A stretch of 35,828 nt of DNA from JAWOFN01 sp046497505 [NCBI: bacterium] (GTDB lineage Bacteria > Blakebacterota > Blakebacteria > Blakebacterales). Both the position numbers and the translations under genes were made by a program. The notes below the pieces were generated by a model. It was not told the DNA's origin, did no database searches, and saw only the letters and a list, made by a program, of their open reading frames with translations. The stretch lies in NCBI GenBank assembly GCA_046497505.1, contig JAWOFN010000105.1, positions 1 to 35,828 on the forward strand, written 5' to 3'. Positions 3,537 through 14,588 of this stretch are shown here, piece by piece. Numbering within the stretch: the first letter of the stretch is position 1; each line of letters starts with the position of its first letter.

Positions 3537-3613
<77 letters not shown>

Positions 3614-3618
3614 TCTCG

Positions 3619-3653
3619 AAGACCCCTGCACCGGAACCCCGGGCAGGGGTCTT
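3619..3653 (+). terminator. Hairpin terminator after tRNA-Asp
   Basis: AAGACCCCTGC (3619-3629) pairs perfectly with GCAGGGGTCTT (3643-3653). The 13-base loop can itself fold through CCGG / CCGG. It starts 5 bases after the tRNA CCA. A strong T-run is missing (CTTCTGATTC follows), so it is a stem-dominated terminator as often seen at high G+C. Confidence 0.75.
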
Positions 3654-3743
3654 CTGATTCGGTCCGTTGAGTAACGCCCCTTTCTGCGGTATACGTTGAG
3701 GGTCCGCACTCTCCCCGTCCGAACCGAGCAAGTGAGGTCCGGT

Positions 3744-6700
3744 ATGCTCCGCCGACTCCCCGCCGTTCTCGTCCTGCTCCTCGCATCGCCATTTGCGGCC
3801 TCGGGCCAGGGCACCGGCCCTTTGGGGCCCGAGCATGTGAGGGCCTTCTCCTTCCGGGAACTGGGTCCTGCGGTGACCGGCGGGCGGATCCACGATGTGG
3901 AGGCGGTCCCGGGGGATGCGGCCACCATCTACGTGGGGGCCTCCAGCGGCGGGGTATGGAAGAGCACGAACGGAGGATTCGACTGGACCCCCCTGTGGGA
4001 CGAGCTGCCCAACAGTGCGGTCGGTGACATCGCTCTGGCCCCCTCCGACCCGGAGGTCCTCTATGTGGGGACCGGCGGACCGAACAACCGTCAGAGCACC
4101 CTCTACGGCAACGGGGTCTGGAAGTCGACGGACGGCGGTTCCACCTGGACGCACCTGGGGCTGGAGGAGACGCGCCACATCGGAAGGATCCGGGTCCATC
4201 CCGCCGACCCGGACATCGTCTACACGGCCGCCCTGGGTGACCTCTGGGCGGCGAACCCCGAGCGGGGGGTGTTCAAGACGACCGACGGGGGACGCTCCTG
4301 GGAGAAGGTCCTCTACATCGACGAGGACACGGGTGCGGTGGACCTGGTCATGGACCCCGCCGACGGGGACGTGCTCTATGCCGCCGCCTACCAGCGCAGG
4401 AGGCGGACCTGGGGCTTCGACGGGGGGGGGCCGGGGAGCGGGATCTACCGGACCACAGACGGCGGGCGCAGCTGGACCGAACTCACCGACGGCATCCCCG
4501 CCGGGGAGAAGGGGCGCATCGGGCTCGCCATCTCGGCCGCCGACCCGCAGGTGCTGAACGCCACCATCGAGCACCGGACCGAAGGGGGCACATACCGGAC
4601 CTCCGACGGCGGCGCCACCTGGGAGCGGGTCAGTCGGGTGAACCCCAGGCCCATGTACTACAGTCACATCTCCATCGATCCCACCGATGCCGACGTGGTC
4701 TACGTGCTGGGGACATCCTCCTACAGGAGCACGAACGGGGGGAGGGACTTCGAGACCCTCCCATCCGCCCAGACGTACGACGTGGGCATGCACGCGGACC
4801 ATCATTCGATCTGGATCGACCCGGACCAGCCGGACCACATCTACCTGGGGGGGGATGCAGGCCTCCATGTGAGCTGGGACGGGGGGATATCCTGGGACCG
4901 GATCAACAACTTCGGCATCGGTCAGTTCTACGCCATAGGGGCGGACATGCGGGAGCCGTACCGGGTGTACGGCGGCATGCAGGACAACCACTCCTGGATG
5001 GGGCCCAGCCGTACACGCCGGTGGATCGGCATCGTGAACGACGATTGGCGTCAGGTGGGGTTCGGCGACGGCATGTACACAAGGCCCGACCCCGCAGACC
5101 CCCGGAGGGTCTACATCGATTCCAACGGGGGCAGGATCACCCGTGTGGACTCGGAGACCGGCGCGATCCAGAGCATCGACCCGGTGGAGCCGGAGGGGGA
5201 GGAGTACCGCTTCGACTGGACCGCCCCCATCGAGATCAGTCCCCACGACCACCGCACGATCTACCTGGGGGGGAACCGCCTCTTCATCAGCCGCGACGAG
5301 GGGGCCTCGTGGACCCGGACCGTGGACCTCACCAGGCAGATCGACCGGGATACCCTCCCCATCATGGGAAGCCCGCCCGGACCGGAGACCCTGAGCCGGC
5401 ACGACGGGACGAGCTCCTACGGCGAGATCACCACGGTGGACGAGTCCGCCCTGGTGAAGGGGCTGATCTGGGTGGGGACCGACGACGGCAACGTCCAGGT
5501 GAGCAGGGACGGCGGCCTGAGCTGGACCGAGGTCTCGGGTCGGGTGCCCGATGTGGGGGACCTCACGTATGTCAGCCGGGTCCAGGCCAGCCGGCACCAG
5601 CCGATGCGGGCCTACCTCACTTTCGACGCCCACCGGGACGGTGACCGGCGCCCTTACGTATTCGTCACCGAGGACCTGGGGGAGAGCTGGGAGCGCATCA
5701 CCCGCGGGCTGCCGGAGACCGGACCGGTGAACGTGATCCGGGAATCCCCCCGGAGCGAGGACCTGCTCTTCCTGGGAACCGAACATGCCCTCTTCATGAG
5801 CATCGACCGGGGGGAGCGGTGGATGCAGATCAGGAACGGTCTCCCCACCGCGCCTATCGACGACCTTCTCATCCACCCCAGGGAGGACGACCTGATCGTG
5901 GGGACCCACGGCAGGAGCATCTGGATACTGGATGACATCTCTCCCCTCAGCCAGTTCGAAGATGCGGCAGCCGCCGAGGCCGTCCATCTCTTCCGCCCCC
6001 GCTCCGGGGTGCAGTGGCAGAAGTGGAAGGCCACCAGCTACCGGGGGCATGCCGCCTACTCTGCCCCCCCGGCTCCGGAGGGCACCTACATCAGCTACTG
6101 GCTGGGCGAGCCCCTGGATGAGCCCGTGCGCGTCAAGGTGCTGACCCGGGACGGCAGGACGGTGCGTCACCTGGAGGGGGGCGGTGAGGCAGGCTTCCAC
6201 CGGGTACTCTGGGACCTGCGTCTCGAGCCCCCGCCGGAGGACCCGGACGGGGGGTCCGGCTTCCGAGGAGGGGGCAGGGAGGACCCCAACATGACCCCCC
6301 GGCTCCAGCAGATGCTCGTCGATCGCGGACCCTTCGTGATGCCCGGTACCTACACGGTGCGTCTGGAAGCGGCGGGCCGGACCCTCACGACAGGAGTGGA
6401 GGTGCGTGCGGATCCCGCAGACCCCCTCTCCCCCTCGGAACGGCAGGAGCGATGGAGCTTCGTCTGGACCGCATGGCAAAGTCACATGGACGGGTTCGAG
6501 GAAGGGCTCCGGGCCCGCAGGCTCCGTGACGGGGTGCGTTCGGTGGGGATGGATGTCGCTCAGGCCGGGGAAGAGGACCTGGGAGAGGAGCTGGACGGCC
6601 TGGAAGAGGACCTCACCCGCGTGTACGAAGCCCTGTGGCGGGAGGTACGCAGGGGTACCGACCGCCTGCTGGACGGGTTCAGCGGGGGCGGTATCAGATA

Positions 6701-6875
6701 CGGTACCTTCGAGGGGCCGGTGGAGGGGGACCGGGAGACCCTCGCCCGGCTGGAAGATCGGCTGGAGGAGGCGGAAGGCGAACTGGAACGGATCCTCGGG
6801 GAGGAGGTGCCCGGGCTGAACCGGAGGCTGAAGGCCGCGGGTCTGCAGGAGATCCGGCCACTGTCCCGACGCTGA
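3744..6875 (+). CDS. Secreted Asp-box (BNR/VPS10-like) beta-propeller protein
   Basis: A 1043-residue exported protein. Residues 1-21 form a signal peptide (MLRRLPAVLVLLLASPFAASG). About eleven Asp-box repeats follow from residue 74 on, for example KSTNGGFDW, KSTDGGSTW, KTTDGGRSW, RTTDGGRSW, RTSDGGATW, VSRDGGLSW and VTEDLGESW, indicating two propellers of the sortilin/VPS10 or glycosidase-like type. After the propellers come a beta-sandwich-like part and a helical, acidic C-terminal region. Proteins like this are often labelled glycosyl hydrolase, but no catalytic residues can be assigned, so substrate and activity are unknown. The ATG at 3744 is preferred over upstream in-frame starts because it begins the signal peptide and is preceded by GTGAGGT. 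Confidence 0.85.
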   Translation: MLRRLPAVLVLLLASPFAASGQGTGPLGPEHVRAFSFRELGPAVTGGRIHDVEAVPGDAATIYVGASSGGVWKSTNGGFDWTPLWDELPNSAVGDIALAPSDPEVLYVGTGGPNNRQSTLYGNGVWKSTDGGSTWTHLGLEETRHIGRIRVHPADPDIVYTAALGDLWAANPERGVFKTTDGGRSWEKVLYIDEDTGAVDLVMDPADGDVLYAAAYQRRRRTWGFDGGGPGSGIYRTTDGGRSWTELTDGIPAGEKGRIGLAISAADPQVLNATIEHRTEGGTYRTSDGGATWERVSRVNPRPMYYSHISIDPTDADVVYVLGTSSYRSTNGGRDFETLPSAQTYDVGMHADHHSIWIDPDQPDHIYLGGDAGLHVSWDGGISWDRINNFGIGQFYAIGADMREPYRVYGGMQDNHSWMGPSRTRRWIGIVNDDWRQVGFGDGMYTRPDPADPRRVYIDSNGGRITRVDSETGAIQSIDPVEPEGEEYRFDWTAPIEISPHDHRTIYLGGNRLFISRDEGASWTRTVDLTRQIDRDTLPIMGSPPGPETLSRHDGTSSYGEITTVDESALVKGLIWVGTDDGNVQVSRDGGLSWTEVSGRVPDVGDLTYVSRVQASRHQPMRAYLTFDAHRDGDRRPYVFVTEDLGESWERITRGLPETGPVNVIRESPRSEDLLFLGTEHALFMSIDRGERWMQIRNGLPTAPIDDLLIHPREDDLIVGTHGRSIWILDDISPLSQFEDAAAAEAVHLFRPRSGVQWQKWKATSYRGHAAYSAPPAPEGTYISYWLGEPLDEPVRVKVLTRDGRTVRHLEGGGEAGFHRVLWDLRLEPPPEDPDGGSGFRGGGREDPNMTPRLQQMLVDRGPFVMPGTYTVRLEAAGRTLTTGVEVRADPADPLSPSERQERWSFVWTAWQSHMDGFEEGLRARRLRDGVRSVGMDVAQAGEEDLGEELDGLEEDLTRVYEALWREVRRGTDRLLDGFSGGGIRYGTFEGPVEGDRETLARLEDRLEEAEGELERILGEEVPGLNRRLKAAGLQEIRPLSRR

Positions 6876-6984
6876 TCGACCCGATGCTTGCGGCTTGCAT
6901 GGTCGGTCGGAGGGGTGCAACGTGTGAAGAGGGGCCCGTACGTGCCCTTCCGACACCCGATGGAGAAGGAGCATCTTCGACCGA

Positions 6985-8031: not shown

Positions 8032-9486
8032 TCAGGCCAGGCGGGCCAGGTACGCCTTCAGCAGGTCCCAGGTCTTCTGGACCGATGAGATCTGCACCTT
8101 CTCACCCGGGGCATGGGGACTCCGGATCTCGGGCCCCATGCTGATCATGTCCAGGCCCGGCACCTTCTCGCCGATGATGCCGCACTCCAGACCGGCGTGG
8201 ATGGCCTTGACCAGCGGCTCTTCCTCGAAGAGGTCCTGGAAGACCTCCCTGCCCACCTCGAGGAGGTGGGAATCGGGGTCGGGGGTCCAGCCCGGGTAGC
8301 CCTCGGGACTCTCCACCTCCGCCCCCGCCAGTTCGAAGGCGGAACGGATCTGCTCCACCGTGCCCCGAAGGGCGGGCATGACACTGGAGCGGGAGCTGGT
8401 GGTGATCTCGATGCTGTGCTCCCCGGTGTGGATCACCGCGAGGTTGTTGCTGGTCTCCACCAGCCCCTCCACGTCCCTGCTCATGGCCAGGACCCCGTGG
8501 GGCACAGCCATGAGGGCACCCACCAGGCGGCGGGTCAGGTCATCGGTGAAGACCCGGTCGGGGACCTCCGCCTCCTCGACCACGACCTCCAGGTCGGGAT
8601 CGATCCGGCCGAACTCCTCCTCGAACTGTTCCTGCTGGGCAGCGGCCACACCGCGGAGCTTGTCTGTGGCACCGGTGACCAGGCGGACCTGCGCGAAAGC
8701 CTCCCGGGGGATGGCGTTGTGCTTCGACCCCCCCTCCACGCTCACCAGGTCGATCTCGATGCCCGCCTCCACGGCGGTCTTCAGGACCCGGGCCAGGAGC
8801 TTGACGGCGTTGGCGCGGTTCTCATGGATGTCCACACCGGAGTGGCCGCCCCGAAGCCCCTTCACGGCCAGCTCTACCTGCTCCGGGCGTCCGGTCTGTA
8901 TCTGTTCCAGGTCGAAGGTCGCATGGAGGTCGGAACCTCCCGCACACCCGATGTAGAAGGCGCCGTCCTCCTCAGTGTCCAGATTGATGAGACGCCGGCC
9001 CTCCAGCAGGGAGCCGTCCAGCCCGGATGCCCCCGTCAGCCCGGTCTCCTCGTCCACCGTGAAGAGGAGCTCCAGGGGGCCGTGCTCCACGTCATCGCTG
9101 GCAGCCGCTGCCATCATCATGGCCACTCCCACCCCGTTGTCTGCTCCGAGGGTGGTGTCGGGGGCCACGATCCAGTCGCCGTCCCGTTCCATCTGGATGG
9201 GGTCGGTCATGAAGTCGTGGTCCACATCGCTGTTCTTCTCGGGGACCATGTCGAGGTGGCCCTGGAGGATGAGCTTCTCGGCATCCTCTCGGCCCTCCGT
9301 AGCGGGCACCCGGACCACGATGTTCCCCACCTCGTCCTGGCTGTACTCGAATCCCTGGTCACCGGCCCACGATTTCACCCAGGCCAGTGCCTTCTCTTCG
9401 TGCCTGGAGGGGCGGGGGATCTGCCGGATCTCGTCGAAGTAGGACCAGACACTGGCAGGCTGAAGATCGGAAAGGGGACTGCTCAT
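8032..9486 (-). CDS. pepD: Aminoacyl-histidine dipeptidase, peptidase M20C
   Basis: A 484-residue metallodipeptidase of the PepD/M20C type, cleaving Xaa-His and other dipeptides in the cytoplasm. The two-metal site is visible: His77 and Asp79 in ILQGHLDMVPEKN, bridging Asp116 in LGADNGVGVA, the Glu146-Glu147 pair in DEETGLTGASGL, Asp174 in NLDTEEDG, and a late His in SPHAPGEKV. The lid domain insertion lies around residues 190-390, and the length is typical of the family. No signal peptide is present. The ATG at 9486 starts just before the first conserved helix. It lies 119 bases downstream of amrS on the same strand, and its end faces the PAC2 gene across a strong hairpin. Confidence 0.92.
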   Translation of the reverse strand: MSSPLSDLQPASVWSYFDEIRQIPRPSRHEEKALAWVKSWAGDQGFEYSQDEVGNIVVRVPATEGREDAEKLILQGHLDMVPEKNSDVDHDFMTDPIQMERDGDWIVAPDTTLGADNGVGVAMMMAAAASDDVEHGPLELLFTVDEETGLTGASGLDGSLLEGRRLINLDTEEDGAFYIGCAGGSDLHATFDLEQIQTGRPEQVELAVKGLRGGHSGVDIHENRANAVKLLARVLKTAVEAGIEIDLVSVEGGSKHNAIPREAFAQVRLVTGATDKLRGVAAAQQEQFEEEFGRIDPDLEVVVEEAEVPDRVFTDDLTRRLVGALMAVPHGVLAMSRDVEGLVETSNNLAVIHTGEHSIEITTSSRSSVMPALRGTVEQIRSAFELAGAEVESPEGYPGWTPDPDSHLLEVGREVFQDLFEEEPLVKAIHAGLECGIIGEKVPGLDMISMGPEIRSPHAPGEKVQISSVQKTWDLLKAYLARLA

Positions 9487-9605
9487 CGCTGTGTACTCCA
9501 GTCTACTGGCTTGGATGGACCTCGGACCGGCTCGCTCGTGAGCGGACCGATGGTAAGTTCATGCCGGCGGCCCGTATGTGCAAGCGAATGAGGGGCGGCG
9601 GGCGT

Positions 9606-10679
9606 TCAGGACCATACGCCGGGGACCGCAGCCCCGCAGTCGGGACACCGGCCCCCGCGGGTACGGTCCTCGCGGATCCTGAACCCGGACCGCTCCACGA
9701 GCCGGAACCCGCAGGAGGGACAGTGCGTGTCCTCCCACTCGCCCGCTCCTCCGGGGAGGTTCCCGGCATAGACGAACCGCAGCCCCGATTCCCGGCCGAT
9801 GGAAGCCGCGTGCCGCAGACCCGCTATGGTCGTGGCCGGAGGATCCTGCATCCTGTAGTCGGGGTGGAAGGCGGTGACATGCCAGGGTATGTCGGGGGAG
9901 ACCTCGGCGAGGAAGCCGGTGAGCTCCCGGATCTCCGTATCCGAATCGTTCATGCCCGGGATGAGGAGGGTGACCACCTCGAGCCAGACGTCCATGGCGG
10001 CCAGGCGCCGGATGGTCTCCAGGACCGGCTCCAGCTTCCCCCCCAGGCGCCGGTAGGCTTCGTCGGTGAACGCCTTCAGGTCCACTTTGTAGAGATCCAG
10101 GTGGGGATCCAGGTACTCCAGGACCCCGGGGGTGGCGTTCCCGTTGGAGACGAAGGCGGTGCGCAGCCCTTCTTCCTTCGCCACCCTGAAGACCTCCGCG
10201 GCCCATTCGGCGGTGATGAGGGGCTCGTTGTAGGTGCTGGTGACGATCCGAGCCCCCGACTCGAATGCCATGGCGACGATCCGTTCGGGAGAGATCTCCC
10301 GGACCGGGGACTCTGCCGCCTCGTCCCGGAGCGCCTGACTGGTGACCCAGTTCTGACAGAAGGAGCAGTGGTAGTCGCATCCCATCATCCCGAATGAGAG
10401 GGCGAGGGAGCCTGGCAGGGCGTGGAAGAAGGGCTTCTTCTCGATGGGATCCGCATGGAGTGCGGAAGTGTAGCCCCGGGGGACGTAGAGTACACCCTCC
10501 CGATTGTAGCGGACCTTGCAGATCCCGCGATGCCCCGGCGGGACCAGGCAGCGGTGGGCGCACGCGTAGCAGCGGACCCGGTCGCCCTCCTCCTCCACGT
10601 AGAGGTCCCCGGGGGCGGAGAGGGCGTCCAGCCGATCCTCCAGTGTCCCGGTGCCGCCCTGCGATGAACGTCTCATCAT
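9606..10679 (-). CDS. amrS: AmrS-like radical SAM enzyme (AmmeMemoRadiSam family)
   Basis: A 357-residue radical SAM protein. The [4Fe-4S] motif CDYHCSFC at residues 101-108 has the CxxxCxxC spacing. An N-terminal Cys-rich segment (CYACAHRC at 37-44, GICKV at 52-56), TYNEP, and a C-terminal pair of CPSC and CPDC motifs fit the AmrS family (pyruvate-formate-lyase-activase-like). The family name comes from frequent association with AMMECR1 and Memo domains; neither is encoded next to it here. Its substrate is unknown. The start at 10679 (tandem ATG codons) is chosen because residues encoded further upstream look non-conserved and Arg-rich; the frame opens from 10754. It diverges from the cytochrome operon across a less G+C-rich spacer. 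Confidence 0.85.
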   Translation of the reverse strand: MMRRSSQGGTGTLEDRLDALSAPGDLYVEEEGDRVRCYACAHRCLVPPGHRGICKVRYNREGVLYVPRGYTSALHADPIEKKPFFHALPGSLALSFGMMGCDYHCSFCQNWVTSQALRDEAAESPVREISPERIVAMAFESGARIVTSTYNEPLITAEWAAEVFRVAKEEGLRTAFVSNGNATPGVLEYLDPHLDLYKVDLKAFTDEAYRRLGGKLEPVLETIRRLAAMDVWLEVVTLLIPGMNDSDTEIRELTGFLAEVSPDIPWHVTAFHPDYRMQDPPATTIAGLRHAASIGRESGLRFVYAGNLPGGAGEWEDTHCPSCGFRLVERSGFRIREDRTRGGRCPDCGAAVPGVWS

Positions 10680-10909
10680 AGAGGTATCATCCGCCCCCCT
10701 GCGGCTCCTCACAAGGGCAATCCCCGCAGGGATCCAGCTGACCGGACAGAACATATGAACAGATGGGTATTCAACTGATATCTAAAATAAGAGTTTCCAC
10801 TCCGTTTATCCTTGAACCTCCCGGATACACTGCTTTTCTTCGTCCCAAGGGAGGTACGGGAAGGTTCCCGTACCGAGGCGAACCACGACTTGACGGGAGC
10901 TGCCGCACC
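10680..10909. promoter_or_regulatory. Divergent intergenic region, amrS / cytochrome operon
   Basis: 230 bases separate the divergent amrS and cytochrome starts. The stretch at about 10750-10830 is clearly richer in A+T than its surroundings (for example GATATCTAAAATAAGAG at 10777-10793), as expected for promoters, but I could not assign a convincing -35/-10 pair on either strand. A perfect palindrome lies at 10853-10874. Confidence 0.45.
10853..10874 (+). promoter_or_regulatory. Perfect palindrome, candidate operator or 5'-UTR hairpin
   Basis: GGTACGGGAA (10853-10862) and TTCCCGTACC (10865-10874) are exact inverted repeats separated by GG. The element ends 35 bases before the ATG of the cytochrome lipoprotein. 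As DNA it would suit a dimeric repressor or activator; as RNA the 2-base loop is too tight, so the innermost pairs would have to open. No regulator is encoded next to it. Confidence 0.5.
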
Positions 10910-11128
10910 ATGGGTCGCAAACGACCGATCTATCACGTGCTCCTCGCCCTCCCGCTCCTGCTGGCCCTGAACCTGGCGGCCTGCAGCAGCGACAGCGAGG
11001 GGCCCACGGAATCGGAGCTGCTCCTCGGCATGAACAACTGCACCGGCTGTCACCTCGATGCCGACCAGCTGGTGGCCACCGCCGCCCACGAGGAAGAGGA
11101 CGAGGATGAGGAAGCGGGTGAGGGGTGA
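10910..11128 (+). CDS. N-terminal part of a multihaem cytochrome c lipoprotein, ends at in-frame TGA
   Basis: 72 codons. A lipoprotein signal peptide ends in LNLAAC (Cys25 would be lipidated), followed by a first haem site CTGCH at residues 44-48 and a very acidic linker (AAHEEEDEDEEAGEG). The frame stops at TGA 11126-11128, yet the same frame resumes at once as a ten-haem cytochrome (11147-12280) that has no export signal of its own. The two pieces read as one 456-codon gene broken by a single stop. The ATG at 10910 begins the signal peptide. It may be a genuine nonsense mutation, a sequence error in the G-runs beside the stop, or readthrough; a free-standing monohaem lipoprotein is less likely. 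Confidence 0.75.
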   Translation: MGRKRPIYHVLLALPLLLALNLAACSSDSEGPTESELLLGMNNCTGCHLDADQLVATAAHEEEDEDEEAGEG

Positions 11129-11146
11129 GGGGGCACCGCGCCTCCG

Positions 11147-12280
11147 TTGGAGGTGTACGAGAAATACATGCTGAGTGAGGCCTTCGTAGCCGACGCCCAT
11201 GGCGGTCTGACCTGTTTCGAGTGTCATGGGGGGACGGAAGGGGCGGAAGAGAAGGAAGCGTCCCACGCCGGGCAGGTCCCTGATCCCTCGGACGCCGGGG
11301 CCGAGACGAACATCTGCGGGGCGTGCCACAACAGCAAGGCACAGACCTTCGAGAACTCGCTCCACTACACCCAGAACGGCTATTTCTGGACCTTCGAGCA
11401 GCGCAGCGGGGTGGCGGCGGAGGCCAGCACCGGGTTCATGCAGGCCTTCGGCAGCCACTGCCAGCAGTGCCACGCCACCTGCGGTCAGTGCCACATCAGC
11501 CGGCCCGCCAGCGTGGGCGGAGGTCTGGTGGAAGAACACGAGGTCATCGCCACGCCCGACATGAACGCCCAGTGCACCGCCTGCCACGGCAGCCGGGTGC
11601 ACGACGAGTTCAAGGGCATCCATCCCGGCCTGCGGGCCGACGCCCACTACGTGGCGGGTATGGACTGCATGGACTGCCACACCGGGAGCGAGATGCACGG
11701 CACAGGGTTCACGCCGGACGACATGCGGGGGGCCATCGGTCGGGCCTCCTGTTCGGACTGTCACCCGGGCCCTGCCGCGGGCGACGACGGCATCACCCAC
11801 CACGAGCTCCACGCCCAGGCGGTGGACTGCACCGTCTGCCACAGCCAGCCCTACCGCACCTGCTACCAGTGCCACGTGGGGGAGAGCGGAGTGGCCGGCC
11901 ACGGCCTCCGGTTCCCCTCGGAGCTGGACTTCCGGATCGGGAAGAACCCCATCCCCTCCCCGAGCCGTCCGTGGGAGTACACCATCGTGCGGCACATCCC
12001 CGTCTACCCCGAGATGTACGAGGCGTACGGGGTCACGCTGGACCAGTTCGACACGCTGCCCACATGGAAGTACGCCGTACCGCACAACATCCGGCGCAAC
12101 ACGCCTCAGACCGAGTCCTGCGACGCCTGCCACGGGGAGCGCGGGATCTACCTCACCGCGGCGTACCAGGACACCCTGATCAACGACACCAAGGCGGTGG
12201 CTGAAGAGATCTCAGCCAATGCCGCTGTAGTCACCGACCCACCGGCTCTGCCTGGTGGCTCCACCTCAAGGAGGAAGTAG
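11147..12280 (+). CDS. Multihaem c-type cytochrome, main part with ten CxxCH sites
   Basis: Ten haem c motifs in order: CFECH, CGACH, CQQCH, CGQCH, CTACH, CMDCH, CSDCH, CTVCH, CYQCH and CDACH; with CTGCH in the upstream piece there are eleven. Haem attachment requires export, but this piece has no signal peptide, so it depends on being joined to 10910-11128, with which it is in the same frame. Possible independent starts (TTG 11147, GTG 11153, ATG 11168, the last with GGAGGT 13 bases before) would give a cytoplasmic apoprotein. The expected role is periplasmic or surface electron transfer; the substrate cannot be told. The stop is immediately followed by the rhodanese ATG, with AAGGAGG inside the end of this gene. 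Confidence 0.85.
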   Translation: MEVYEKYMLSEAFVADAHGGLTCFECHGGTEGAEEKEASHAGQVPDPSDAGAETNICGACHNSKAQTFENSLHYTQNGYFWTFEQRSGVAAEASTGFMQAFGSHCQQCHATCGQCHISRPASVGGGLVEEHEVIATPDMNAQCTACHGSRVHDEFKGIHPGLRADAHYVAGMDCMDCHTGSEMHGTGFTPDDMRGAIGRASCSDCHPGPAAGDDGITHHELHAQAVDCTVCHSQPYRTCYQCHVGESGVAGHGLRFPSELDFRIGKNPIPSPSRPWEYTIVRHIPVYPEMYEAYGVTLDQFDTLPTWKYAVPHNIRRNTPQTESCDACHGERGIYLTAAYQDTLINDTKAVAEEISANAAVVTDPPALPGGSTSRRK

Positions 12281-13303
12281 ATGAAGTCCCGTTGGACCAA
12301 ACTGATCATGCTCCTGCCGGCCCTGGTGCTGGCCCTGGGGATCACCGCCTGCTCGGATGATGACGACGCCACGGGCCCGTCGCAGACCGACTGGGAAGTG
12401 GTCTTCGACGCGGTGGCTGAGACGTGGGGCTCGGGAACCACTCCCGGCGCGGCCATCTCCCCCACCGCCCTCAACGACGACATCAACGGCGACGCGGAAT
12501 ACTACATCCTGAGCGTCCGCGCCGCAGCCGACTACAACACCGGCCACATCCCCACCGCGGTGAACATCCCGTGGCGTGAGGCCTTCACCGAGGCGAACTA
12601 CGCCACCCTTCCCACCGACCAGCCGATCGCGGTGTACTGCTACACCGGGCACACCGGTGGTTTGGTGGCCTACGCCCTCCAGATCCTGGGCTTCGACGCC
12701 GACAACCTGAAGTGGGGCATGATGAACTGGAACAGCGACCCCGCGGTGGGCGGCGTGGAGGGCTGGGCCGGTGACCAGGGCCTCGCGGTCGAGACCGGTG
12801 CTTCCGAGGACTGGAGCACGTGGCCCGACAACGACCTGCCCACGACCGTCGATTTCGCCACGGACGACCCGGATGAGATCCTGCGCCTGGCGGCCGACCG
12901 CTGGATCAGCGACACCAGCTGGGTGCCCATCACCAGTGCCTCCGCGCTGTTCAACGACCACCTCTCGGACGGGTACCAGGAGGCCACGGACCCGATCATC
13001 ATCAGCGTGCGCGCCCAGGCCGACTACGAGGATGGCCACATCCCCGGCGCCATCAACATGAGCCGGGAGCAGATGGCCGACCAGGCCAACCTGATGAAGC
13101 TCGACCCGGACAAGGACATCGTGGTCTACTGCTACACGGGCCACACCGGCGGGCAGGCCGCGGCCATCCTGAACATGCTCGGCTACAAGGCCCAGAACCT
13201 GAAGTTCGGCATGATGGACTGGAACGCGGACTACCTGGGTCCGGCCGGCGCCTTCAGCGGCGCGCAGGAGTTCGATACCTCGGGGAGCACCCTGAACAAC
13301 TAG
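12281..13303 (+). CDS. Tandem rhodanese-domain lipoprotein
   Basis: A 340-residue exported lipoprotein: basic start, hydrophobic helix 7-22, lipobox GITAC with Cys24, then an Asp-rich spacer. Two rhodanese domains follow (about residues 55-155 and 215-320). Each has the active-site loop CYTGHTGG, with Cys120 and Cys284, preceded by DYxxGHIPxAxN and followed by a W/F-GMMxWN segment. Both catalytic Cys are kept, so both domains may carry sulfane sulfur or selenium. The start has AAGGAGG at 12268-12274 and abuts the cytochrome stop, so the two genes are co-transcribed. Thiosulfate, polysulfide, tetrathionate or selenite chemistry is possible; the sequence does not decide. Rhodanese lipoproteins beside multihaem cytochromes are known in Geobacter extracellular electron-transfer clusters. 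Confidence 0.88.
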   Translation: MKSRWTKLIMLLPALVLALGITACSDDDDATGPSQTDWEVVFDAVAETWGSGTTPGAAISPTALNDDINGDAEYYILSVRAAADYNTGHIPTAVNIPWREAFTEANYATLPTDQPIAVYCYTGHTGGLVAYALQILGFDADNLKWGMMNWNSDPAVGGVEGWAGDQGLAVETGASEDWSTWPDNDLPTTVDFATDDPDEILRLAADRWISDTSWVPITSASALFNDHLSDGYQEATDPIIISVRAQADYEDGHIPGAINMSREQMADQANLMKLDPDKDIVVYCYTGHTGGQAAAILNMLGYKAQNLKFGMMDWNADYLGPAGAFSGAQEFDTSGSTLNN

Positions 13304-13337: not shown

Positions 13338-13353
13338 AGGGGAAGCCGGAGCG

Positions 13354-13385
13354 AGGGCGGGGCACTTGCCCCGCCCTTGCTTTTT
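13354..13385 (+). terminator. Intrinsic terminator of the cytochrome-rhodanese operon
   Basis: AGGGCGGGGC (13354-13363), loop ACTT, GCCCCGCCCT (13368-13377), then TGCTTTTT. A perfect 10-bp G+C stem followed by a T-run is a classic rho-independent terminator. Confidence 0.9.
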
Positions 13386-13475
13386 GGGTTTTACTGGGGA
13401 AGGGGATCTGCCGGGGGGACCTGCCCCCGGCGGAGGAGGTGCAGGGCCTATCCGATTCCAGCAGGAGGCAGGAGC

Positions 13476-14588
13476 ATGGACCGTCTCATCCTGCGGCAGC
13501 GAGTCCTCATATCGGCCCTCGGATTGCTCCTCTCGACCACCTCCGGGTGCGGTCTCTTCGACAGCGACCCCGGGCTCTACTTCAACACAGGTGCCCTCCG
13601 GCCCGGGCGCCTGCTCCTGGCCACACATCCGGTGGACACCTTCGGTTCGGACGTCAGCCTCTACACCCTGACCGTCAGCGGTACCACCCGATTCAGCGTC
13701 TACGCTTCAGGGGTGGGGGACCCCGCCTCCCCCCACATCGTCCAGCGTCCCTCGGGCGGATGGCTCCTGGGATACGGATGGGAGCGCATCACCGTGCGCA
13801 GCAGTATCGGGGACGTGGAGCACACGCTGAGCGGCCGCGGTGCGCGGCAGAGAGGGATCGCCCTGGATCCCACGGGGTCGGGGCGCCTGGCGTTCATGGA
13901 CGGGTCCGCCTCGGGGGGGTACGACATCTCCTACCGCTCCAGCCCGGGCGGGAGGACCGTCGCACTGACCGAAGAAGCCTCCCCGGGCGTGAGCTGCTGG
14001 ACCCCCTCATGGTCGCACGACGGCCGGTGGATCCTCTATGCCCGCATCGCGGGGACCACCGGGGAGGAGGCCGAACTCTGGCGGGTGCACCCCGACGGGA
14101 CCGGGGCGGAGCAGCTCCCCATAACCACCGTCGAACTCCCCACGTACGCGATCTTCAGTCCGGATGGGAACGAGGTGTTCGTGCCCGGGGACTTCACCTC
14201 GTATCGGGTCTCCGACGGTGCGGTCGGGACGATCGACCGGGTCCGGGAGACCCAGGACTTCCGTGACCAGCTCTCCGACCTGGGGTACTCGATGGTGGGC
14301 AGCCCGCTGACGGGTCCGGAACAGCCGGGAGGACCGACCACCGCCTTCCGTCACACCTTCCCCATCAGTGCGGACTGGACGGGTGATAACAGCGAACCCA
14401 TCTACTTCGACGCCCTGGTGGCGTCCTCCGGATCGGGGGGCGATCCGCCGGAGCTGGCGGGTGCGGCCATCTTCTCGTGGCATCCTGTTACACGGACACT
14501 GGTCGAGCACGTCGGCCCGGTGAGGTTCCCCGACTCCTTCACGGAGGGGTGGTCCATCAGCATCCTGCACCCCACCCTGATACCCTGA
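13476..14588 (+). CDS. PD40/TolB-like beta-propeller lipoprotein
   Basis: A 370-residue exported protein with a signal peptide ending in a lipobox-like LSTTSGC (Cys about 24). The rest is beta-rich, with WD40-like PD40 repeats: WTPSWSHDGRWILYARI followed by LWRVHPDGTG, and YAIFSPDGNEVFV. This resembles TolB-type six-bladed propellers that act in periplasmic protein interaction, but no partner genes (tolA, pal) are near. The ATG at 13476 has AGGAGG 8-13 bases upstream. It is separated from the cytochrome operon by a strong terminator, so it has its own promoter; its stop lies 12 bases from the convergent pyrD stop. Function unknown. Confidence 0.8.
   Translation: MDRLILRQRVLISALGLLLSTTSGCGLFDSDPGLYFNTGALRPGRLLLATHPVDTFGSDVSLYTLTVSGTTRFSVYASGVGDPASPHIVQRPSGGWLLGYGWERITVRSSIGDVEHTLSGRGARQRGIALDPTGSGRLAFMDGSASGGYDISYRSSPGGRTVALTEEASPGVSCWTPSWSHDGRWILYARIAGTTGEEAELWRVHPDGTGAEQLPITTVELPTYAIFSPDGNEVFVPGDFTSYRVSDGAVGTIDRVRETQDFRDQLSDLGYSMVGSPLTGPEQPGGPTTAFRHTFPISADWTGDNSEPIYFDALVASSGSGGDPPELAGAAIFSWHPVTRTLVEHVGPVRFPDSFTEGWSISILHPTLIP

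Follow-up and report, generated by a model that had tools for sequence, protein, structure and literature searches.

A predicted selenocysteine-containing eleven-haem cytochrome genetically linked to a tandem rhodanese

The window analysed here (the whole stretch of 35,828 nucleotides from contig JAWOFN010000105.1, assembly GCA_046497505.1, JAWOFN01 sp046497505, Blakebacterota) carries at positions 10910-13303 of the forward strand a pair of adjoining genes for two predicted lipoproteins: (i) a multihaem c-type cytochrome; and (ii) a tandem rhodanese. The frame of the cytochrome gene is interrupted by a TGA codon (11126-11128) between haem motifs 1 and 2. Judging from its homologues, the protein read across this codon almost certainly contains selenocysteine (Sec), and we infer selenium incorporation in the window organism itself. 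The resulting family of multihaem cytochrome selenoproteins, genetically tied to a rhodanese, is new. A previous interpretation made from the DNA letters alone (the sequence-only reading) had described an eleven-haem cytochrome lipoprotein; its lipoprotein start and 11 CxxCH motifs hold, but they do not lie in one open frame, since the in-frame TGA had been overlooked. The features of the cytochrome gene are as follows:

10910..12280, + strand: predicted Sec-containing 11-haem cytochrome c lipoprotein, 456 residues with predicted Sec73 (sequence and comparison; UGA form in 28 further genomes)
10973..10984, + strand: lipobox LAAC with the lipidated Cys25 (sequence; aligned Cys in most, not all, homologues)
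11039..11053, + strand: haem motif 1, CTGCH, the sole motif 5' of the UGA (invariant columns in 15 sequences)
11126..11128, + strand: in-frame TGA, predicted Sec codon in the motif G-E-G-U-G-G (comparison with homologues)
11138..11156, + strand: hairpin resembling a bacterial selenocysteine insertion sequence (SECIS), 8 pairs, GUU loop, the loop G being the 18th nucleotide after the UGA (covariation, covariance model)

Occurrence of the in-frame TGA among homologues

The frame 10910-12280 holds 11 CxxCH motifs, one upstream and ten downstream of the TGA. Without read-through, its products are a 72-residue lipoprotein and a ten-haem remnant devoid of an export signal; since only one of the motifs precedes the TGA, an eleven-haem lipoprotein requires this codon to be recoded.

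A search of genome contigs with the single protein returned one close relative and two distant matches. The former, on a contig of a metagenome-assembled genome (L001; JALGVQ010000032.1), shows 65% identity along the full length of the query; its aligned codon is likewise TGA, and a rhodanese gene lies downstream. The latter, from Nitrospina and Heliorestis, are other multihaem cytochromes. Two sets of genomes were then compared: (i) a first set, obtained with a two-protein profile (window and L001) from 386 genomes around G001, the genome to which L001 belongs, at E ≤ 1e-10; and (ii) a second set, obtained with a profile of 15 UGA-form proteins from 385 genomes around G347 at E ≤ 1e-30. In the first set 19 genomes matched, 14 of them with an in-frame TGA between haem sites 1 and 2, in the motif G-x-G-U-[GA]-[GA]. 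As for the remainder, G308 is without the segment, G023 is ended by its contig, and G249, G305 and G038 match the middle only; the last four were counted neither as having nor as lacking Sec. The second set consists of 31 genomes: 16 were already known from the first set (the 14 UGA carriers, G308 and G023), and the 15 added ones comprise 14 with the UGA form and one (G402) with a cysteine form. The genomes around G317 yielded no additional carrier (16 of 386, all already found).

In this way the segment was found to be kept in 31 loci including the window, with TGA in 30 (from 29 genomes, the window included) and TGT in one (G402). The common core of the motif is G-U-[GA]-[GA], and the GxG before U is usual, being absent in G390 and G414. 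Carriers make up 16 of the 40 genomes in the phylum of G402 and one of the four in the phylum of G001; the remaining carriers belong to neither, so that at least three phylum-level groups are involved. One genome, G393, has two pairs of Sec cytochrome and rhodanese (L116 and L117), and, within the stretches compared, an outer-membrane-type gene is seen only near the L117 copy.

An internal stop in a single assembly could be due to a pseudogene or a sequencing error. This explanation was rejected, and its probability is practically nil: the TGA stands at the same codon in all 30 loci, all 11 haem motifs are intact, and the ratio of nonsynonymous to synonymous substitution rates between the window and L001 (about 0.28 before and 0.22 after the TGA) indicates purifying selection on both sides. 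A global reassignment of TGA was also rejected, as three nearby Pfam-matched genes of the window (M20 peptidase, radical SAM and M14 peptidase) terminate in TGA, which is therefore still a stop in the window organism, and so do six of the 15 first-set cytochrome genes.

Evidence for selenocysteine decoding

Taken together, the conserved UGA, the existence of a cysteine form, a hairpin downstream of the codon and the co-occurrence with SelB point to a selenoprotein family with 11 conserved haem sites. The cysteine form of G402 has a TGT codon, one base away from TGA (ESGGCGGDAP), and falls within a 13-row clade in which all 12 remaining rows have the UGA form (tree support 100/98), on a long branch that makes its placement less certain. 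The genome of G402 gave no SelB match at E ≤ 1e-60. On the other side of the comparison, SelB exceeds its curated cut-off in 26 of the 28 UGA-form genomes (13 of 14 in the first set and 13 of 14 in the second), tRNA-Sec with the anticodon TCA was detected by ARAGORN in 12 of the 14 first-set genomes, and each of these 14 has SelB or tRNA-Sec. In the segment-less G308, the search for SelB gave nothing at E ≤ 1e-30, and the top candidate for tRNA-Sec is in fact a tRNA-Ser.

Across the family, the hairpin has seven to eight pairs and a GUU-type loop and begins 10 bases after the TGA. Its covariation was assessed by five measures in 27 of 28 sequences (L044, with a four-base loop, was omitted; an earlier round used 15 sequences), and neither the hairpin alignments nor the tree include the G389 locus or the second locus of G393. 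Three of these measures exceed all 500 shuffles and all slides: paired cells (80.8% vs 67.7% shuffled and at most 47.8% slid), cells changed on both sides (22 vs 6.8 shuffled) and the covariation score (0.371 vs 0.154 shuffled). Furthermore, a covariance model built from 15 sequences recovers all 13 held-out UGA loci on which it was run (E 1e-9 to 0.018); it gives no match at the cysteine locus or the segment-less locus, and its sole other hit in the window has E 0.49. In the comparison of the window with L001, the identical run of 26 bases that starts at 11138 ranks among the two longest of the gene. An Rfam scan of the window and L001 found two tRNAs and nothing else.

Several results weigh against decoding as Sec: (i) only one cysteine form is known among the 31 loci that keep the segment; (ii) SelB was not found in the draft genomes G327 (first set) and G392 (second set); (iii) the tRNA-Sec survey covers the first set only, where no candidate exceeded the cut-off in G201 and the best one in G034 is a tRNA-Trp (both are draft genomes); (iv) the SelB and tRNA-Sec evidence comes from the genomes of relatives, not from the window's own; (v) the two other covariation measures were equalled by shuffles, namely five pairs changed on both sides (97 of 500 shuffles) and 12 further pair types (29 of 500); (vi) the hairpin overlaps coding sequence, and the success of the covariance model is in part protein conservation; and (vii) the folding energy of the hairpin is weak (z from -1.0 to -2.2).

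The same DNA could in principle be read with no recoding at all, as two proteins, namely a 72-residue lipoprotein with a single haem and a cytochrome whose translation begins anew at TTG 11147 or ATG 11168, with the GGAGG of the hairpin (11149-11153) as ribosome-binding site; GGAGG precedes ATG 11168 in the window and the aligned ATG in L001. Nevertheless, such cytochromes receive their haems outside the cytoplasm, where the restart product could not arrive for want of an export signal. Besides, the residues between the TGA and the ATG are conserved, within 24 codons after the TGA an in-frame ATG is missing from ten of the 15 first-set sequences (GTG and TTG not counted), G402 has a cysteine codon in the place of the stop, and the UGA form tracks SelB. 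A restart is thus highly improbable.

The rhodanese partner

The second gene of the pair follows the cytochrome gene directly, and its features are:

12270..12275, + strand: GGAGGA, ribosome-binding site of the rhodanese gene, within the end of the cytochrome gene (sequence)
12281..13303, + strand: tandem rhodanese lipoprotein, 340 residues (PF00581, E 4e-33; model with a predicted local distance difference test score, pLDDT, of 83.5)
12638..12640, + strand: codon of active-site Cys120 (CYTGHT), rhodanese domain 1 (sequence and alignment)
13130..13132, + strand: codon of active-site Cys284 (CYTGHT), rhodanese domain 2 (sequence and alignment)
13348..13383, + strand: terminator-like stem of 16 pairs, then a T-rich tail (2 sites in the region vs 1.0 in shuffles)

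What the sequence-only reading had stated about this gene stands: a tandem rhodanese lipoprotein (PF00581 in two stretches, 114.4 bits vs a gathering threshold of 22.2), a start codon (ATG 12281) abutting the stop codon of the cytochrome gene (TAG 12278-12280) behind a ribosome-binding site, and a terminator at the end of the pair. The protein exceeds no NCBIfam cut-off.

That reading had also proposed looking for the gene pair and for the rhodanese cysteines in relatives. In all 28 loci that could be evaluated, a rhodanese gene adjoins the cytochrome gene and shares its strand (23 downstream, 5 upstream), the loci of G390, G400 and G392 being those that could not be evaluated because their contigs end inside the gene or within about 125 bases after it. 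In the 17 kb surrounding the homologue of G308, which is without the segment, no rhodanese was detected. The paired active-site cysteines are kept in 24 of the 28 loci, and both columns are invariant in ten rhodaneses chosen as two-domain. The rhodanese is exported in most loci. From these comparisons, the cytochrome and the rhodanese very probably constitute a functional unit.

In the model of the rhodanese, the single domains match rhodanese folds with Z up to 17.8, including domains of (i) the coenzyme A-disulfide reductase 3ict (Z 16.6, root-mean-square deviation (rmsd) 1.5, 103 aligned residues); (ii) the persulfide dioxygenase fusion 5ve4 (Z 15.6, rmsd 2.1, 104 aligned); and (iii) the NADH persulfide reductase 3nta (Z 14.7, rmsd 1.4, 95 aligned).

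Some loci depart from the usual arrangement. The rhodaneses of G244 (L043, 5544-7559) and G196 (L050, about 8400-10252) have four Cys-x-x-Gly loops, as if made of four domains, and G397 (L122, 8040-8993 and 11364-12365) has, in addition to the adjacent rhodanese gene, a second tandem one about 3.3 kb past the Sec cytochrome.

The cytochrome protein

Identity to the window cytochrome ranges from 32 to 64% among the 14 other proteins of the first set. The alignment of these 15 sequences contains 57 invariant columns, including the Sec, all 11 Cys/Cys-His haem sites and eight additional histidines which are candidate distal ligands. The strict CxxCH count varies from 8 to 11 across members because some have three or four residues between the two cysteines. 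The Sec-bearing stretch is acidic and glycine-rich (GEGUGG), and residues 60-75 have a pLDDT under 50 in the model; this stretch is probably a mobile arm next to haems 1 and 2.

A fold comparison of the cytochrome model with 18 chains matched only the S-layer undecahaem cytochrome 6qvm, uninformatively (Z 2.0, rmsd 5.8, 174 aligned). By profile, the closest solved sequence is 1sp3 (E 8e-9, 138 positions), which we take to be the Shewanella octahaem tetrathionate reductase. Initial scans of NCBIfam, Pfam and the PDB covered the part after the TGA; later ones took the read-through protein (NCBIfam and Pfam) or the alignment (PDB) as query. The NCBIfam and Pfam models searched name no such selenoprotein family.

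Wider gene clusters

The neighbours of the pair were compared in 30 loci, including the window and G308. The following groups recur: (i) a second multihaem cytochrome with 6-12 CxxCH motifs (14 loci); (ii) two unrelated families of outer-membrane type (7 loci each); (iii) homologues of an HmcB/HybA-like iron-sulfur protein (8 loci) and of an HmcC/HybB-like membrane protein (7 loci), both named from two loci with scores below the curated cut-offs; and (iv) a histidine kinase with one CxxCH motif (7 loci). The outer-membrane-type call is based on gene order and a single weak match to BBP2_2: in the first family, one member matched the putative beta-barrel porin model with E 6e-5, just below the cut-off, and the single scanned member of the second family had no Pfam match. 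Judged by gene content, these larger clusters resemble an electron conduit that is linked to quinones, under regulation, and set apart by the Sec cytochrome and the rhodanese at its end.

The sequence-only reading had taken the pair for a self-contained unit, which is right for the window and does not extend to the 14 other loci, where it sits in larger clusters. It had also stated that no reductase or porin is encoded beside the pair. In a Pfam scan of seven nearby open reading frames (window up to 19.6 kb) no porin or reductase family was recognised: five match other families, and 3537-6974 and 13377-14585 match nothing. Beside the G001 pair no conduit gene was seen either, at the level of clustering; the two-gene core alone is recognised in both the window and G001.

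The conduit-type genes listed above would equally suit general extracellular electron transfer to metal oxides or electrodes, with the cytochrome as a mere wire and the Sec and rhodanese as accessories (redox switch, repair or scavenging). A pure wire, however, has no need for Sec; the U/C residue and the rhodanese occur together in every evaluable locus; the sole known homologue without U/C, that of G308, has no rhodanese nearby; and the window and G001 pairs stand without recognised conduit genes. A role as general wire is, for these reasons, rather improbable.

Other genes in these neighbourhoods are recorded here in their own right. Past the terminator, the window frame 13377-14588 (+) encodes a protein of at most 403 residues with a lipobox-like Cys and a probable start at ATG 13476. 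The radical SAM gene of the window (9606-10754, - strand), divergent from the pair, resembles what we take to be the AmmeMemoRadiSam type, and L001 has a Memo-AMMECR1 fusion (10559-12169, +) about 2.4 kb past the rhodanese; genes of this type were not found in the other 15 neighbourhoods searched, and no link to the pair is claimed. In G108 (L041, 3234-4406), a response regulator fused to a glycine-cleavage-H-like (lipoyl) domain lies upstream of the Sec cytochrome; the response-regulator family recurs in seven loci, and the lipoyl fusion was examined in G108 alone. Upstream of the Sec cytochrome of G317 (L037, 4742-9233) are a pyridine nucleotide-disulfide oxidoreductase and a thioredoxin (on the opposite strand), followed by genes for two regulators, one PAS-type and one of the ArsR family; PAS/sigma-54 regulators of that family are shared by five loci.

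Proposed mechanism

Comparison of the loci establishes, at the level of sequence, the conserved in-frame UGA, the hairpin, the Sec/Cys exchange, the rhodanese linkage and the conduit-type genes of relatives. The substrate, the direction of electron flow and the contact between Sec73 and the rhodanese cysteines are what we infer from them. The explanation that best fits the whole, favoured slightly above even, is an operon whose Sec cytochrome reduces sulfane sulfur presented by the rhodanese. In this scheme: (i) the TGA at 11126-11128 would be read as Sec by means of the SECIS hairpin just downstream, giving one exported 11-haem lipoprotein; (ii) the selenol would be carried, between haems 1 and 2, by an arm that is acidic, rich in glycine and probably flexible; (iii) the tandem rhodanese would offer Cys-S-SH, formed from polysulfide, thiosulfate or tetrathionate, or a selenium or tellurium equivalent, on its two active-site cysteines; (iv) attack of the selenolate on the rhodanese-bound sulfur would give a selenenyl-sulfide on Sec73; (v) two electrons arriving through the haem chain would release sulfide (or zero-valent selenium or tellurium) and restore the selenolate; and (vi) in relatives, the electrons might come from the quinone pool by way of the HmcBC-like proteins and the cytochrome conduit of the same cluster.

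A cytochrome acting on rhodanese-bound persulfide or selenium had already been put forward by the sequence-only reading. The pair and the paired cysteines on which this idea leaned are conserved, and the UGA, the strongest hint of chalcogen redox chemistry, had gone unseen. Whether the cytochrome is a reductase of sulfane sulfur or of a kindred chalcogen stands, on the sequences, evenly balanced. That it represents a new class of terminal reductase, in which a selenol within an eleven-haem chain is served by a dedicated exported rhodanese donor, with no molybdopterin, sirohaem or flavin, in at least three phylum-level groups, can be advanced only tentatively.

Some results sit poorly with this proposal. 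The link to sulfane sulfur is one of family resemblance. The cysteine pair is incomplete in four loci: G142 and G279 have one Cys for two domains, G317 has a single-domain rhodanese with one Cys, and the gene of G034 is truncated at the contig end. The model of the cytochrome is of low quality (pLDDT 67.7) and contains no haems, and a Foldseek search with it returned nothing at E ≤ 0.001.

The alternative closest to the proposed mechanism is that the pair serves selenite or tellurite reduction or detoxification, the rhodanese binding a perselenide derived from Se(IV) or Te(IV) and the Sec cytochrome reducing it, as has been proposed for the ext cluster of Geobacter. That cluster joins the rhodanese ExtH, the porin ExtI and the predicted Sec cytochrome ExtKL within extHIJKLMNOPQS, and loss of extI lowers the reduction of both selenite and tellurite (PMC5877670). 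In addition, the cytochrome weakly matches the NCBIfam models of ExtM, ExtN and ExtO (E 1e-9 to 5e-7, far below the cut-offs), as the rhodanese does that of ExtH (E 0.0021). Nevertheless, the window cytochrome has no ExtKL match, the weak Ext matches fall in CxxCH stretches common to many cytochromes, and the occurrence in several phylum-level groups would suit an abundant acceptor such as sulfur better than rare selenium or tellurium. Detoxification of this kind is accordingly considered unlikely, although less so than the role of general wire.

If the reduction of sulfane sulfur is correct, a class of terminal reductase would have been overlooked because annotation stops the gene at the UGA, and the Sec cytochrome with its rhodanese would be the business end of an electron conduit in at least three phylum-level groups. 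Sec73, Cys120 and Cys284 are named residues with which to probe the reduction of sulfane sulfur, selenium or tellurium through haem wires. The family also exposes a blind spot of annotation: gene callers end at UGA, and there is one cysteine form for 30 UGA loci. The authors of deep-Sep themselves state that the tool may miss selenoproteins without cysteine homologues (PMC12013277).

Comparison with known systems

Genome G347 is possibly, in our assumption, that of Caldithrix abyssi, and the main text of the Caldithrix abyssi genome paper has no word beginning with 'selen' or 'rhodan'. A literature search at the level of phrases, titles and the openings of abstracts, with preprints and most subscription journals outside its scope, found no published selenocysteine cytochrome of this family, which does not prove absence. 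Among the 119 prokaryotic selenoprotein families of a 2026 inventory, the word 'cytochrome' appears, in the portion available, three times, all in the rows of ExtKL (NF040886) and of the octahaem TIGR04315, so that the present family is absent among the cytochromes given there; the Sec entry of TIGR04315 is one protein taken from GenBank annotation, and a CXXCH-containing barrel protein, of the GSU2204 family, is also included (PMC13188914).

Membership in TIGR04315 or ExtKL was rejected on model scores below the cut-offs. For TIGR04315 (cut-off 375), one of eight members scored 17.8 bits, and the other seven, the window among them, gave no match; the octahaem tetrathionate reductase has 8 haems vs the 11 sites of the window family, for all that 1sp3 is nearest by profile. 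For NF040886 (cut-off 250 bits), there was no match at E ≤ 1 in eight members including the window, and no score over the cut-off in the 19 genomes, where the weak matches lie at places other than the pair. The model was also unmatched in 386 genomes around G034; its controls were likewise unmatched, so this is no evidence of absence.

As to the rhodanese, it shares the PF00581 fold and the Cys-x-x-Gly loops with exported rhodaneses such as ExtH and PspE and with tandem-domain sulfurtransferases, but differs from them in having mostly two domains (four in two loci), loops of the CYTG[HQ] type and a Sec cytochrome as partner. The porin-cytochrome conduits (Mtr, Omb/Oma/Omc and Ext) are resembled by the 14 other loci with an outer-membrane-type protein and a 6-12-haem cytochrome. 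Unlike in those conduits, no such genes were seen next to the window pair, and a rhodanese stands where a large surface cytochrome would be, as it does in extHIJKL.

The nearest described analogue is thus the ExtH/ExtKL system of Geobacter, which tempers the claim of the sequence-only reading that this chemistry is little described (PMC5877670, PMC6148476). GSU2937 together with GSU2936 emerged as a selenoprotein candidate from stop-codon mining in 2007, with five CXXCH motifs in its N-terminal part (PMC1914089), and ExtK has been described as a pentahaem cytochrome separated by a TGA from the small ExtL (PMC6148476). Both systems have a predicted Sec multihaem c-type cytochrome whose annotation is split by a TGA, and ExtKL shares its cluster with ExtH, a lipoprotein of the rhodanese family, and with ExtI, a protein of the outer membrane. 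However, in ExtKL five N-terminal haem motifs precede the TGA, whereas in the window family the Sec lies between haem sites 1 and 2 of 11. The window family is analogous to ExtKL but, by the tests made (the NF040886 model and the published description, not a direct sequence comparison), is not a member of it. It adds to Geobacter ExtKL/ExtH a second, differently built combination of Sec, multihaem cytochrome and rhodanese, which looks recurrent and not an oddity.

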